From Magnetococcales bacterium WMHbinv6 (GTDB taxonomy: Bacteria > Pseudomonadota > Magnetococcia > Magnetococcales > Magnetaquicoccaceae): DNA of 55,365 bases. The DNA lies in assembly GCA_002753135.1 (NCBI GenBank), contig PDZV01000025.1:1-55365 (forward strand). Direction: 5' to 3'. The notes under the pieces were generated by a model. It was not told the DNA's origin and did not search any database. It saw only the letters and a list, made by a program, of their open reading frames with translations. The position numbers and the translations under genes are program-made. This document shows, piece by piece, positions 10,043-33,578 of this stretch (position 1 is its first letter; every line of letters starts with the position of its first letter).

Positions 10043-11254
10043 GTGAAACTGATTCAACCATTTGCCGGCTGGCGCCCGCGGCCTGGTTTGGCCGCTGAGG
10101 TTGCTGCACCACCTTATGACGTACTCTCCAGTCAGGAGGCACGCCAGCTGGTCAAGGATCATCCTCACTCATTTCTCTATGTTTCCAAAGCGGAAATTGC
10201 TCTTGATCCCTCCCTGTCACCCTATGACGAGCAGGTTTATCAGACGGCAGCAGAACGTTTTGCCGCCATGCAACGGGAGGGCATTTTGCGGCAGGAAGCG
10301 ACCCCCTGTCTCTATATTTATCAATTGACCCTGGGCCAACGGCGACAGACCGGGGTTGTCGCGGCAGCCTCCATCGCCGCCTACCGCAACGAACGCATCC
10401 GCAAACATGAATTGACCCGTCCAGACAAGGAAAACGATCGCACCCGTCTGGCTGAGGTGCTTGCCGCCCATTCCGGCCCCGTTTTTCTGATCAGTCGACA
10501 GGATCAGCATCTGGACCGTATGGTAGAGCAGATTCAACAGGCCTCCCCCCCGAATGAAGCCTTTCTGGCCGATGATGGCGTGCATCATGCCCTGTGGGTG
10601 GTCTCTGAGCCGCACCTCATTGAGCAACTGGTGGATCGGTTTGAACAACACCCTCGCCTCTATATTGCCGACGGTCATCATCGTTCGGCAGCGGCAGCCC
10701 GGGTTGCCGAACGGCATGCGCACGCTGACCGTTTTCTGGCGGTTATTTTCCCGGAAAATCAGCTGCAAATTCTTGATTATAATCGTGTTGTCAAAGATTT
10801 ACGCGGCCTCTCCACACAAGCGTTTCTGCAGGCCGTGGCCGAACGGTTTCGCATCACCCCGGCACCCTCTGCCGTGGCCCCCAAGGAGCGCCATACCTTT
10901 GCTCTCTATCTGCCCGGCCAGTGGTATCAGTTGACTTTGGCTGCCGAGTGGATCGACGAGAGCGATCCTCTCTCGTCGCTGGATGTGGCCCTGCTGGATC
11001 GCCATCTGTTGCAACCCATTTTGGGCATTGAAGATCCCCGTCGGGACCAGCGGATTGATTTTGTCGGTGGGGTGCGGGGGACGGCGACCTTGCAGGCGTT
11101 GGTGGACTCCGGCAGCATGGCCGCCGCCTTCGCCCTCTGCCCGACCAGTCTGGCAGAACTGCTGGCCGTCGCCGACGCCAACAAAATCATGCCGCCCAAA
11201 TCCACCTGGTTTGAACCCAAACTGCGCGATGGGCTGGTGGTGCAGACCTTCTAA
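10043..11254 (+). CDS. DUF1015 family protein
   Basis: This 403-residue protein belongs to the conserved DUF1015 family. Signatures are the N-terminal PFAGWRP followed by AAPPYDVLS, the segment RKHELTRPDKENDR, the glycine/histidine motif IADGHHRSAAA and the C-terminal KIMPPKSTWFEPKLRDGLVV. The start is a GTG with AGGGAA nine bases upstream. The biochemical role of the family is not established. The HEx3 and DGHHR motifs hint at a phosphate- or metal-binding enzyme, sometimes linked to serine phosphorylation. It lies 16 bases behind the receiver-Hpt gene and could be co-transcribed with it, but no functional link is apparent. Confidence 0.88.
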   Translation: MKLIQPFAGWRPRPGLAAEVAAPPYDVLSSQEARQLVKDHPHSFLYVSKAEIALDPSLSPYDEQVYQTAAERFAAMQREGILRQEATPCLYIYQLTLGQRRQTGVVAAASIAAYRNERIRKHELTRPDKENDRTRLAEVLAAHSGPVFLISRQDQHLDRMVEQIQQASPPNEAFLADDGVHHALWVVSEPHLIEQLVDRFEQHPRLYIADGHHRSAAAARVAERHAHADRFLAVIFPENQLQILDYNRVVKDLRGLSTQAFLQAVAERFRITPAPSAVAPKERHTFALYLPGQWYQLTLAAEWIDESDPLSSLDVALLDRHLLQPILGIEDPRRDQRIDFVGGVRGTATLQALVDSGSMAAAFALCPTSLAELLAVADANKIMPPKSTWFEPKLRDGLVVQTF

Positions 11255-11258
11255 AACA

Positions 11259-11668
11259 GGCGTTATTCACCCCCCCCCAAGACAACTTGGGGTCCAGGGA
11301 GCTGGCTCCCTGGCGGGTCCAGGGCAGAGCCCTGGGAATTTGCCTTTAATCTGTTGCCTTTGGCGCGCTTTTCACCGTAAGCAGATTGGCGCAGCAGATC
11401 TGCGCAGCGCGCCTGTTGACGCAAGATGTTCGTGTTGGCGCGCTTTTATGCGCCAACACGAACATTCTCCCCATGGGTTTTGTCCGAGAGCATCCAAAAT
11501 CCTGCAAGGTTACAAGTCGGGCTCCGCCCTCCCAAAGCGTGCCCCTGCGGGGCACAGATTGTGGCGCGCTGCGCCAATTTGCTGCGCAAATTGGCTTCGG
11601 TGTAAGCGCGCCATTCATGCAGGGCGCTGCCCTGCAGCCGCAAGGGGAGATGATCTCCCCTTGACCCC
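11259..11668. repeat. Dispersed palindrome-mosaic repeat, copy A
   Basis: The 472-base gap between the DUF1015 and HlyD genes contains no convincing gene. It is a chain of short palindromes: TCCAGGGAGCTGGCTCCCTGG, CCAGGGCAGAGCCCTGG, a GTGTTGGCGC/GCGCCAACAC pair, AATTTGCTGCGCAAATT, GCAGGGCGCTGCCCTGC and GGGGAGATGATCTCCCC. The left part (11281-11395) matches 30815-30942 in reverse complement with few differences, including the block around GCGCGCTTTTCACCGTAAGC. The right part (about 11565-11665) shares its framework with the copies at 30740-30830 and 32240-32300. The arms differ between copies but stay self-complementary. Confidence 0.8.
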
Positions 11669-11726
11669 GCACTACTTTTGCTTGCCATTACCAGAGAGGA
11701 AGACTGAATCGTTACATGAGGTTGCC

Positions 11727-13130
11727 CTACGGCTCACGCAAACTTTCGTTGAACGAGCGGGTGATGGGGTTGAGAATGTAGGCGGCAATGCTGCGGTAGC
11801 CGACTTTGATCTCGGCGTTAAGCGTCATGCCACGGATCAGACGAATGCCTTCCGGCAGATTGTAGAGTTTGGTACTCATCAGCTCGACCCGACCGATGTG
11901 CATGGCTCCCGTCGCCCCCTTGTTATCCTTGCTGCCGATCATCGCCTCTTTGCTGTTGGGTGATTCGTTGCCGCCGCCATAAGACTCCTGACTGATAAAA
12001 CGGAGCCGTCCTTCCAGCATGCCATGCCGCTGATAGGGGAAGGCATCAATCTTGATCACCACTTTGTCGCCGACCTTGACATAGCCGATGTCGCGGGAGG
12101 GAATGGTAATTTCGGCCACAAAAATGGCATCCGCCGGTACGATGGTGATCAACAGTTCGGCCCCTGGCAACACAGCACCCGGTGAACGTTTAGCCACCTC
12201 CAGCACAACACCATCCTCCGGGGCCGTCAACACCTCAAATTCGGTAATTCTGCGCGCCTTGGTCACCGATTCATCCACTTTGGCCAACTCGGTACGGGTG
12301 GCCACCAGATGATCCAACACCTGACGCAGCCAGTCGTCGATAAAATTTTGTCGATCAGCCTTTTTCGACAACAGGCTGTGCTGCAACTCAATCAAACGGT
12401 TGACCGATGCGCGATAATCCTGCTCGGTACGAATGCTGCTTGCCTGCGACTCTTGATACTGCAAATTGGTGCCTGTCCCCGTCTTGGCCAAATCGCGTCG
12501 TTTGCTTTCAATGTCCCGGTTGATCTCCATCAATTTGGCCTGATGGCTGCGATTATCCTCCGTGGTGCGAATGGCGGCCTGCAAACCTTGAATCTCTTCA
12601 TCGTACATGCGCAGGCGGGATTTGTACTGGGAGCGCCGCTGATGCAACAAGGTGGCCTGCAACCGCTCGTCGGCATTGGAAGCGCTGTCGGCAACAAAAT
12701 CGCCGCCCTCCACCTCACTCTCCAAACGGCGCAACTGGGCCAAGAGTGCCTGTTGCTGCACCAGCAAAGCGGCCAGATCGGCACGGGCAAAAGTGGGGTC
12801 AAAGGTTGCCAAAACCTGCCCTTTCTTGACCAGATCTCCCGGTTTGACTATCATTTCACGGATAATCGAACGATCGACCGGCTGCAACTGAATCGGTGGG
12901 GTATCGGTGGTCAAGCGGCCTGAACCGACCACCACAATATCGGTGTCGGCCACGGAAGCGACCACCACCATGGCGATAAACATGGCCACGATCAAATAAT
13001 AGGTCGCCATCATCGCCTTGGGCGGTTCTGTTTCCATAACCGGCCCGATACCGGTCTGAAAAGGAATTGCCTCAGAGGTAATTTTCGCTTTGACACGTTT
13101 GAGGGGAATTTTTGCGAGAAAAGCTGCCAT
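11727..13130 (-). CDS. HlyD family type I secretion adaptor
   Basis: A 467-residue periplasmic adaptor (membrane fusion protein) of a type I secretion system. There is a short cytoplasmic N-terminus, one membrane segment at about residues 43-62, then a lipoyl half-motif (IVKPGDLVKKGQVLATFD). A long coiled coil of about 200 residues carries EQDYRASVNRLIELQ-like heptads. The second lipoyl/beta-barrel half includes TAPEDGVVLEVAKRSPGAVLPG and the family segment IDAFPYQRHGMLEGRL. Such proteins bridge an inner-membrane ABC exporter and a TolC-like channel. Neither partner nor a substrate gene is adjacent, so the gene is an orphan in this window. It lies directly beside repeat copy A. Confidence 0.9.
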   Translation of the reverse strand: MAAFLAKIPLKRVKAKITSEAIPFQTGIGPVMETEPPKAMMATYYLIVAMFIAMVVVASVADTDIVVVGSGRLTTDTPPIQLQPVDRSIIREMIVKPGDLVKKGQVLATFDPTFARADLAALLVQQQALLAQLRRLESEVEGGDFVADSASNADERLQATLLHQRRSQYKSRLRMYDEEIQGLQAAIRTTEDNRSHQAKLMEINRDIESKRRDLAKTGTGTNLQYQESQASSIRTEQDYRASVNRLIELQHSLLSKKADRQNFIDDWLRQVLDHLVATRTELAKVDESVTKARRITEFEVLTAPEDGVVLEVAKRSPGAVLPGAELLITIVPADAIFVAEITIPSRDIGYVKVGDKVVIKIDAFPYQRHGMLEGRLRFISQESYGGGNESPNSKEAMIGSKDNKGATGAMHIGRVELMSTKLYNLPEGIRLIRGMTLNAEIKVGYRSIAAYILNPITRSFNESLREP

Positions 13131-30667: not shown

Positions 30668-30739
30668 TCGTTAAAAAATCCGTAACTATTCAGCTCCTCT
30701 GGATCGCTGCATTTGCAATGAACTGAAGCCAAAGTTCTG

Positions 30740-30948
30740 GTGGGTGCAGGGAGGATCATCCTCCCTGCCGGAGTGCAGAGGCGGAGCCTCTGTTTCTGGT
30801 GCGCTTGCACCGAAGCAGATTTGCTGCGCAAATCTGCTTACTGTGAAAAGCGCGCCAAAGGCAAAAGATTAAAGGCAAATTCCCAGGGTTCCACCCTGGA
30901 CCGGCCAGGGAGCCAGCCTCCCTGGATCCGCAATTGTTTTGGGTGCTG
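30740..30948. repeat. Dispersed palindrome-mosaic repeat, copy B
   Basis: The 484-base gap 30668-31151 holds no convincing gene. 30740-30948 is the reverse-complement relative of copy A. It shows GCAGGGAGGATCATCCTCCCTGC, CAGAGGCGGAGCCTCTG, GCAGATTTGCTGCGCAAATC, CCCAGGGTTCCACCCTGG and CCAGGGAGCCAGCCTCCCTGG in sequence. The connecting block around GTGAAAAGCGCGCCAAAGGC is nearly identical to copy A. The rest (30955-31151) is GC-rich with small palindromes such as GGCCTCCGAGGCC and shows no coding signal. Confidence 0.8.
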
Positions 30949-31151
30949 AATAGTTACAAAAATCCATGCCCTCGGGCTCCTGTGGCGGACCGATGCACAA
31001 ACGCTGCGTAAACAGGGTGTGTTGACATCTGGGACTCGGCGGCCTGCAGAGATGGCGCGGAGAGACGGGCTGCGCAGCCTGCCCGGTCGTGTGAGCAGCG
31101 GAGCCCTCCCCGCAGCGGGTCAAGGCCTCCGAGGCCAGGTTTCAATACGCC

Positions 31152-31708: not shown

Positions 31709-32179
31709 ATGAAAAGCAAGATCGGGGGATTGGCGCTACTGTTGAGTGGTTTACCGATGGCTTTGTGGGCCGCTGATCTGGCGGTCCAGGATGCCTGGGT
31801 ACGGGCCATACCACCCAATATGCAGACCACAGCAGCCTATATGGTGCTGCGCAACGCAGGCACGAGCGGCAAGACGGTGGTGGGTGCTGCCAGCCCGCTG
31901 TTTGCCCGCGTGGAGTTTCATGAAACGGTACAACAGGGTGGTGTCGCCGCCATGATGGCCAGAGACAGCCTGGTCATCGATGCCGGAGGACAGGTGACCC
32001 TGAAACCGGGTGGCTATCATATGATGTTGATTGGTCTGCAGGGTAAACCGTTGCAGGCAGGCGACAAGGTACCGTTGAAACTGCGCCTGAGTGACGGCAG
32101 CGAAGTGGCCATCAACGCCGATGTACGGGCCGCACAAACTCCGGCAGCCCAGGAACAGCACCATCATCACGGCCATTGA
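31709..32179 (+). CDS. PCu(A)C-type periplasmic copper chaperone
   Basis: A 156-residue secreted protein with a signal peptide (about 1-21, ending ALWAA). The PCu(A)C domain follows: DAWVRAIPPNMQTTAAYMVL, VEFHETVQQGGVAAMM and GGYHMMLIGL. The His/Met residues of these segments bind Cu(I). Such chaperones deliver copper to the CuA/CuB centres of cytochrome c oxidase. The C-terminus ends in a short His-rich tail (EQHHHHGH) that may add metal affinity. GAAAGGATAAGG precedes the ATG. Confidence 0.92.
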   Translation: MKSKIGGLALLLSGLPMALWAADLAVQDAWVRAIPPNMQTTAAYMVLRNAGTSGKTVVGAASPLFARVEFHETVQQGGVAAMMARDSLVIDAGGQVTLKPGGYHMMLIGLQGKPLQAGDKVPLKLRLSDGSEVAINADVRAAQTPAAQEQHHHHGH

Positions 32180-32199: not shown

Positions 32200-32311
32200 G
32201 TGTACTGCGCCAATTTGCGCAGTAAATTATGTAAAAGTTTGCTTTTTTGCAGAGGCGCTGTCTCTGCACTCTGGCAGGGGGGATCACCCCTCCTGCCCTC
32301 CGGTGTTTTTG
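32200..32311. repeat. Dispersed palindrome-mosaic repeat, copy C (short)
   Basis: This copy contains ACTGCGCCAATTTGCGCAGT, GCAGAGGCGCTGTCTCTGC and a GGCAGGGG...CCCCTCCTGCC palindrome in the same order and spacing as the right half of copy A and the left half of copy B. Sequence identity to them is low in the arms and higher in the connecting bases. Confidence 0.6.
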
Positions 32312-32381: not shown

Positions 32382-33578
32382 CTATGGATGCCAGGCCACG
32401 TCCCAACCTTCCGGTGCGGTCGCTTTTTTCGGCAACAGGCGGAAGAAGCGAATGCCGAGCAGATACAACAAGCCACTCACCCCAATACCACCCAAGCCCA
32501 GCATGAACTCAACCAAGGTCGGGGCATAACTTCCTTCGACGCCATCCTGAAAGATACTGGCCGCCTCATAACCGGGGAACATGTTCATCGGATAGGCTTG
32601 GCCGGCAATCAGCACAAAACCGACAAAACAGAACAAGCCCAGCACCACCATGCCGGAGGCGAAAGCGATACCACCAATCTGATTGCCCAAGTTGGAGTTG
32701 AACAACACCGCCAACGGTCCCAGCACACCCAGCAAGACCACCCCACCCCAATACAACCAGGCATAGGAACCGGTCAGAATCCAGCTCTCCACATCATAGA
32801 AAGCCGGGGAATAAAACTTGGTGAACTTTTCGACGATCAACAGATACAACACCAACAACAGGAAAAAGATCAGCGCATTACGCAAGGCAAAGAGCAGGCG
32901 GCGATCCAACTCCCGCTCCGTGAAGCGAAATGAGGCCAACAAAAGCAAAATGCTCATCGCCGTGCCGGAGGTCAGCGAAACGGCAACAAAAGTCGGGGCG
33001 GTAATCGCCGAATGAAACACCTCACGGGCATGAATCACCCCGAAAATGGAACCTGTACCGGTGGTCAACACAAAACGCCAGGCAAAGGCCGCCGAGCCCG
33101 CCGCCTTGGTGAATTGCGGAAATTGAAACATGCTCCACAAGTAGAGGAAGCAGAGAACAGTAAAGCCGGAGTACAAAAAGACATTCCAGGTAAACATCGA
33201 ACGGAAGTTCATGTGCAGCATGATCAGCAACATCCGATCCGGTCTGCCCAGATCCAAGGTCAAAACCGTCAAACCACCCGCCAGCAGGACAATGGCCAAA
33301 AAGGCGGAAAAACGACCAAACTGTTTGAACTGCTTGACCGCAAAAATGGTCGACATGGAACCCAGATTCAACGAACCGGAGGCCATCACCAACAACGAAA
33401 TGGCAAAAATGTGCGGCAACCCCCAAACCACCGAGTTGTTCATGCCGGTCACACCATGGCCATTCACTTCAATGTAAATGAACGCCGCTGCTCCCAGCAA
33501 CAACAACAGCCCCATACCAGCGATCAACTTCCAATACCCTTGGGAACGACCCTCAATGGCTGCAAACTCATCAATCAT
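32382..33578 (-). CDS. dsrP: DsrP, NrfD/PsrC-like membrane subunit
   Basis: A 398-residue integral membrane protein with about ten hydrophobic helices. It belongs to the NrfD/PsrC family and acts as the quinone-interacting subunit of the DsrMKJOP complex. Family features include the GLPHIFAISLLVMASGSLNLG segment, the LDLGRPDR motif and HAREVFHSAITAPTFVA. The ATG follows GGGGGAG by six bases. It is the last gene of the block, after dsrO by 15 bases. With DsrJ and DsrO it forms the periplasm-facing redox module. The cytoplasmic partners DsrMK are absent from the window. Confidence 0.95.
   Translation of the reverse strand: MIDEFAAIEGRSQGYWKLIAGMGLLLLLGAAAFIYIEVNGHGVTGMNNSVVWGLPHIFAISLLVMASGSLNLGSMSTIFAVKQFKQFGRFSAFLAIVLLAGGLTVLTLDLGRPDRMLLIMLHMNFRSMFTWNVFLYSGFTVLCFLYLWSMFQFPQFTKAAGSAAFAWRFVLTTGTGSIFGVIHAREVFHSAITAPTFVAVSLTSGTAMSILLLLASFRFTERELDRRLLFALRNALIFFLLLVLYLLIVEKFTKFYSPAFYDVESWILTGSYAWLYWGGVVLLGVLGPLAVLFNSNLGNQIGGIAFASGMVVLGLFCFVGFVLIAGQAYPMNMFPGYEAASIFQDGVEGSYAPTLVEFMLGLGGIGVSGLLYLLGIRFFRLLPKKATAPEGWDVAWHP

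Follow-up and report, generated by a model that had tools for sequence, protein, structure and literature searches.

BIMEs, the mosaic REP arrays of E. coli, consist of modular short palindromes in intergenic DNA. The repeat family described here, from Magnetococcales bacterium WMHbinv6 and its relatives, is likewise a modular mosaic of short intergenic palindromes, but its modules are fixed in order and spacing, its unit is larger and, in several species, it bears MITE ends. With REPINs and REP doublets (PMC3116915, PMC3733652) it shares inverted palindromic halves, a high copy number, intergenic positions downstream of genes or between convergent ones, and a hairpin with compensatory changes, as has been reported for the REPIN hairpin (PMC3116915); it differs from them in that the cassette measures about 400 bp and holds some ten stems, no GTAG was seen, no RAYT gene adjoins it, and IS66 duplications are found where ends are present. 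ISBst12-group IS66 elements and MITEs, among them ISDge4, an active member whose end reads GTAACTGCTCAGCA and whose repeat measures 8 bp (PMC12898284), resemble the family in their GTAACT..TCAGC-type ends, in their 8-bp duplications and in the single-ORF transposase of the partner, whereas the copies analysed here lack a transposase, carry a palindromic and unrelated cargo, and have no partner in their own assembly. Among the papers searched, none dealt with MITEs or with repeats of this kind in Magnetococcales. The explanation that we favour for the whole, at a probability of roughly 75%, is that these are MITEs moved by an IS66-type transposase and loaded with a palindromic cargo, whose arms are re-paired mostly at the DNA level and whose hairpin D is strand-specific.

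Copies in the window and the cassette they carry

The window, meaning the whole stretch of DNA that was analysed, is a contig of 55,365 nucleotides, one of the 80 in a 3.84-Mb draft genome. An initial annotation of its sequence had proposed a dispersed mosaic repeat, and this was borne out: the copies are real and belong to a family far larger than the window, copy 1 giving 33 blastn matches in the source genome. All three proposed copies are present, each between convergent genes, but their limits had to be redrawn, as copy 1 extends further to the right, copy 2 is longer on both sides and copy 3 is merely a decayed piece. The features are as follows.

11259..11715, + strand: copy 1, MITE-like, old, with eroded ends and the full cassette A-B-C-D-E-C'-B'-A'; between convergent genes 10043-11254 (+) and 11727-13130 (-)
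11259..11271, + strand: copy 1 left terminal repeat, eroded, GGCGTTATTCACC, 8/13 to GTAACTATTCAGC
11294..11313, + strand: copy 1 palindrome A, CCAGGGAGCTGGCTCCCTGG
11319..11335, + strand: copy 1 palindrome B, CCAGGGCAGAGCCCTGG
11362..11413, + strand: copy 1 module C, made up of GGCGCGC/GCGCGCC as outer stem, TTTTCACCGTAA as unpaired segment, the inner hairpin at 11381-11403, and GCA
11426..11465, + strand: copy 1 hairpin D, ATGTTCGTGTTGGCGC-loop-GCGCCAACACGAACAT
11519..11555, + strand: copy 1 palindromes E1 (GGGCTCCGCCC) and E2 (GTGCCCCTGCGGGGCAC)
11563..11612, - strand: copy 1 module C', the C architecture inverted, with different inner arms; covariance model E 1.8e-14
11618..11636, + strand: copy 1 palindrome B', TGCAGGGCGCTGCCCTGCA, inverted counterpart of B
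11641..11663, + strand: copy 1 palindrome A', CAAGGGGAGATGATCTCCCCTTG
11703..11715, - strand: copy 1 right terminal repeat, eroded, GTAACGATTCAGT, 2 mismatches
30674..30681, no strand: copy 2 target site duplication, left, AAAAATCC (8-bp)
30682..30957, - strand: copy 2, a 276-bp MITE with intact ends, deletion derivative A'-B'-fused C'/C-B-A, orientation opposite to copy 1
30682..30694, + strand: copy 2 terminal inverted repeat GTAACTATTCAGC (perfect 13-bp)
30945..30957, - strand: copy 2 terminal inverted repeat GTAACTATTCAGC (perfect 13-bp)
30958..30965, no strand: copy 2 target site duplication, right, AAAAATCC (8-bp)
32200..32311, + strand: copy 3, decayed fragment, with B' and A' the only clear palindromes, ends not recognisable; between convergent genes 31709-32179 (+) and 32382-33578 (-)

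The cassette consists of about ten palindromes, and its second half repeats the architecture of the first in inverted form. Module C comprises the conserved outer stem, a partly conserved unpaired TTTTCACnnnAA and a variable inner hairpin, two pairs of which are broken in copy 1. Between copies 1 and 2 there is an inverted match of 103 nt at 92% identity (11301-11403 against 30815-30917); copy 2 is devoid of D and E because a deletion fused it within the inner hairpins of C and C'. No target duplication is recognisable at the ends of copy 1. A search of the window for the C-module pattern gave a single occurrence, which none of 100 shuffles reproduced, and the C covariance model matched copy 1 twice (E 1.8e-14 and 4.4e-12) and copy 2 once (E 5.7e-07).

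In genome-wide searches the C model gave 17 matches in the source genome (G000), 83 and 86 in the relatives G004 and G025, and at least 123 each in G001 and G006; the cassette reaches more than 120 copies per genome, frequently without IS66 ends. The source-genome copy number is probably an underestimate, because contigs C33, C40, C62, C67 and C80 terminate within the repeat. Most named matches to the C-module pattern come from Magnetococcales, including 'Ca. Magnetaquicoccus inordinatus', and the single matches in other taxa are without the conserved inner hairpin, a distribution from which the source genome, too, can be placed in that order. The C model found nothing in about 350 sampled genomes from other orders of the phylum, the A-B pattern occurred once, in one genome of this kind, and the A-B module had no plasmid match. 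In this sampling the cassette is confined to Magnetococcales. Relatives of the same genus hold it without IS66 ends, and for many of the relatives' copies neither such ends nor a target duplication was evident; in G004, A-B-C-D is enclosed by IS66 ends, and G021 has only A and B.

Two copies contain tandem repeats: the cassette at L121:233-766 (G006:C43 region or C135 neighbour) has its B-C linker swollen to a long tandem TTTTATC run, and an end-less cassette at L149:400-995 (G001, HCHbin5) holds at its centre a tandem repeat with a unit of about 54 bp (AAGCGTAATATCCGAAGGTTCTGG...).

Terminal repeats, target duplications and the IS66 partner

Elements were scored as two-ended if both ends were found with no more than 2 mismatches in all, which yielded 37 among the loci fetched from the source and related genomes. 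The 8-bp duplication was perfect in 24 of them and matched at 7/8 in 4 more; 28/37 therefore stand at 7-8/8, against 2.2% reaching at least 7/8 when flanks were re-paired at random. Three of the 37 measure 1722-1740 bp and represent IS66-family elements in full; they lie in G007, G030 and G046, share the GTAACTATTCA ends and are flanked by 7-8/8 duplications. The others, at 53 to 432 bp, are too short to hold a transposase. A further complete IS66 element, its left flank missing, lies at a contig edge in G006 and encodes a homologous product of 471 aa that matches DDE_Tnp_IS66 (PF03050). The ends resemble those of ISDge4, and in G021 exact GTAACTATTCA was counted 93+86 times, against 0 in the reversed control. 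Because relatives hold complete 1.7-kb ISBst12-type IS66 elements with identical ends, the short elements are MITEs, and copies 1 and 2 of the window can be assigned to MITEs with IS66-family (ISBst12-type) ends with little doubt. From the ends, the target duplications and the complete partner elements in relatives, we infer that the elements would be moved in trans, by an IS66-type transposase whose gene lies elsewhere.

The earlier remark that no transposase is near holds locally but misleads, given the IS66-type ends and 8-bp duplications on the copies and the autonomous element in relatives. Complete IS66 partners were found in relatives, but the source assembly gave 0 matches to the partner transposase and holds only a terminal relic of the partner, about 35 bp long, at C16:57328. 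As contigs break inside repeats, a collapsed partner copy in the source genome is conceivable. The source genome's own IS66 element (C15) was ruled out as the partner by its GTAAGCG.. ends, and the Y1/IS200 gene at C1 was discarded as mobiliser, the hairpins flanking it being unrelated.

At the small extreme, a mini-element of 53 bp (L067:820-872; G000:C55:8319-8371) is hardly more than two ends, with the perfect 8-bp duplication CAAATTCT. At L074 (G000:C59:12256-12274) the contig breaks off after 19 bp of an element whose end, GTAACTATTCACCCCCCTG, is different and which is inserted beside another palindromic repeat; this element may be a collapsed IS66 copy.

Covariation of the palindrome arms

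The arm pairs on which the initial annotation had based its case for covariation are present, GCAGGG/CCCTGC (11618-11636) against CAGAGG/CCTCTG and GGGGAG/CTCCCC (11641-11663) against GGGAGG/CCTCCC. Three copies made the case suggestive and the family makes it strong, with 97-99% of stem cells paired, above shuffled and slid controls, which involve no tree-based null. In 25 C modules, picked for arm diversity so that variation is inflated and pairing is not, 97.4% of cells were paired and 12/17 pairs had changed on both sides; both-side changes were seen in 74 cells versus 23 in shuffles, and the covariation score was 0.479, compared with 0.145 for shuffled alignments and 0.05-0.08 for slid structures. 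For 31 D hairpins the corresponding values were 98.9% paired and a score of 0.318 versus 0.084 shuffled. The arms of the cassette palindromes thus keep their complementarity while their sequence changes.

The further claim, that compensatory change implies selection, could not be established, because template switching in hairpins yields the same pattern; during replication it is predicted to change both arms in one step and to leave inverted loops (PMC8794818). Among the 58 cassettes of HCHbin5, the varying pairs were CG34/TA12, CG38/GC9, CG50/AT8, GC43/TA15, AT32/CG25, AT35/CG22, CG37/TA21 and CG40/GC16, each with 0-2 mismatched cells; there are accordingly almost no intermediates, and most of the differences are transversions, which offer no G-U path. 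In all, 149 cells were compensated and 69 uncompensated, out of 3706. The loop is inverted (TGC for GCA) in three C hairpins, L222 and L247 of HCHbin5 and L328 of G006, given as loci instead of totals since overlapping matches had been counted repeatedly. Whether template switching is the main cause of the covariation we consider evenly balanced; the scarcity of intermediates could instead reflect selection against them or recombination between old subfamilies, and the cause is probably mixed. Complementarity of hairpin A up to its centre was dropped as an argument for duplex dyads, the central TNA being nearly constant.

Hairpin D alone shows a strand-specific tolerance of G-T. On the TTTT-loop strand of 47 distinct D hairpins, G-T mismatches outnumbered A-C by 16 to 1 (p 0.0003), or by 13 to 1 (p 0.002) when related copies were discounted by eye, in a test devised after the mismatches had been inspected. 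The linkers of three of the four genomes had no matching bias (C>T vs G>A 14:13, 93:110 and 11:10); those of HCHbin5 were biased (191:99), and HCHbin5 cassettes contribute no D hairpins. In other stems the ratio of G-T to A-C was 3:3 (A/B right) and 0:0 (C), an apparent 7:0 excess of G-T on the left was partly made up of D and C hairpins, and all stems of the four genomes together gave 39 G-T and 49 A-C. A general G-T bias was therefore unsupported once D and the ambiguously oriented E2 hairpins had been set apart. Because G-T but not A-C mismatches are kept, a strand-specific, RNA-like constraint on D is favoured, the pattern being the one that pairing in RNA or in single strands would produce, although for a constraint acting at the RNA level itself we would put the odds at about one to one.

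Position relative to genes and alternative explanations

With genes called by a simple codon-usage script, the 115 classifiable intergenic elements divided into 46 convergent, 60 tandem and 9 divergent, and one further element lay within a gene; element-free gaps numbered 21, 157 and 55, respectively (p 3e-11 for convergent, 2e-4 for divergent). The elements thus lie downstream of genes, as REPs do, for which the same downstream and convergent bias is documented (PMC3733652). Judged by position, elements at gene 3' ends are possibly tolerated or useful, as two-way RNA 3'-end or insulator hairpins. A terminator reading was abandoned, as terminator-like matches were no commoner than chance.

Under the favoured explanation, an IS66-type transposase encoded elsewhere would move the non-autonomous elements in trans; the order-specific chain of palindromes, with its inverted structure, would be their cargo, which in relatives exists without IS66 ends. 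Template switching or hairpin-mediated conversion within the palindromes would change both arms in one event, restoring pairing mostly at the DNA level, and D would additionally be under constraint as a hairpin of one strand, probably within read-through transcripts.

The strongest competitor, for which we see roughly one chance in three, is a functionless selfish passenger, in which mutation by template switching alone would make and keep the palindromes paired and the positions would be harmless insertion sites. The few intermediates and the inverted loops are as it predicts, and the shortage of elements within genes and upstream of them is what purifying selection would leave by removing harmful insertions, whereas the asymmetry of G-T and A-C in D and the unpaired segments conserved across the order suggest some constraint. 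Somewhat less likely is a structured RNA, with selection on the transcript keeping all stems and the copies acting as dispersed functional RNA elements (3'-UTR structures, terminators or processed RNAs). The strong covariation of C and D, the G-T excess in the TTTT-loop strand of D, the conserved unpaired segments and loops of C and the placement downstream of genes would all suit such an RNA; against it, no clear G-T excess exists outside D, many double transversions lack intermediates, and Rfam gave no match, the window having none at the gathering threshold except a tRNA and copy 1 none at E of 1 or below. More doubtful still, though worth stating, is that the cassette is a distinct, order-specific structured selfish element, independent of RAYT, which would need the strand-specific hairpin D for its spread or persistence and would have been repeatedly captured into IS66-type MITEs.

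A REPIN-like element, moved as single-stranded DNA by a RAYT (TnpA-REP) Y1 transposase, is improbable: the inverted halves, the variable central hairpin, the bare copies without evident duplications and the Y1 genes of relatives (open frames of about 225-234 codons in G001, G002 and G006; in G004 a gene broken by an internal stop) recall such a system, but these Y1 genes have no flanking cassette modules, which leaves an association with RAYT unsupported, the single cassette next to one, in G006, overlaps the gene and looks like an insertion, the sole Y1 gene found in the source genome is IS200-like, a GTAG (or CGTC) tag is absent by eye (GGTCC or similar precedes A and B, and D has no conserved tag), and two-ended copies bear IS66 duplications instead. 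The overlapping cassette (L395:198-394, G006:C135) apparently disrupts a Y1 gene of RAYT length. At L170 (around G000:C1:179229-179582), the IS200-like Y1 transposase gene and another transposase-like gene are apparently inserted in another coding region.

For the magnetotactic cocci, the analysis yields a likely mobiliser for one large family of repeats. Covariation is widely taken to prove a functional RNA stem, and this family cautions against doing so in palindromic repeats: its dispersed copies, which run to hundreds within single genomes, bear signs of DNA template switching in the majority of their stems, and in one stem they show signs of a strand-specific constraint. As hundreds of natural replicates, they offer a means of separating selection from DNA template switching in the pairing of hairpins.
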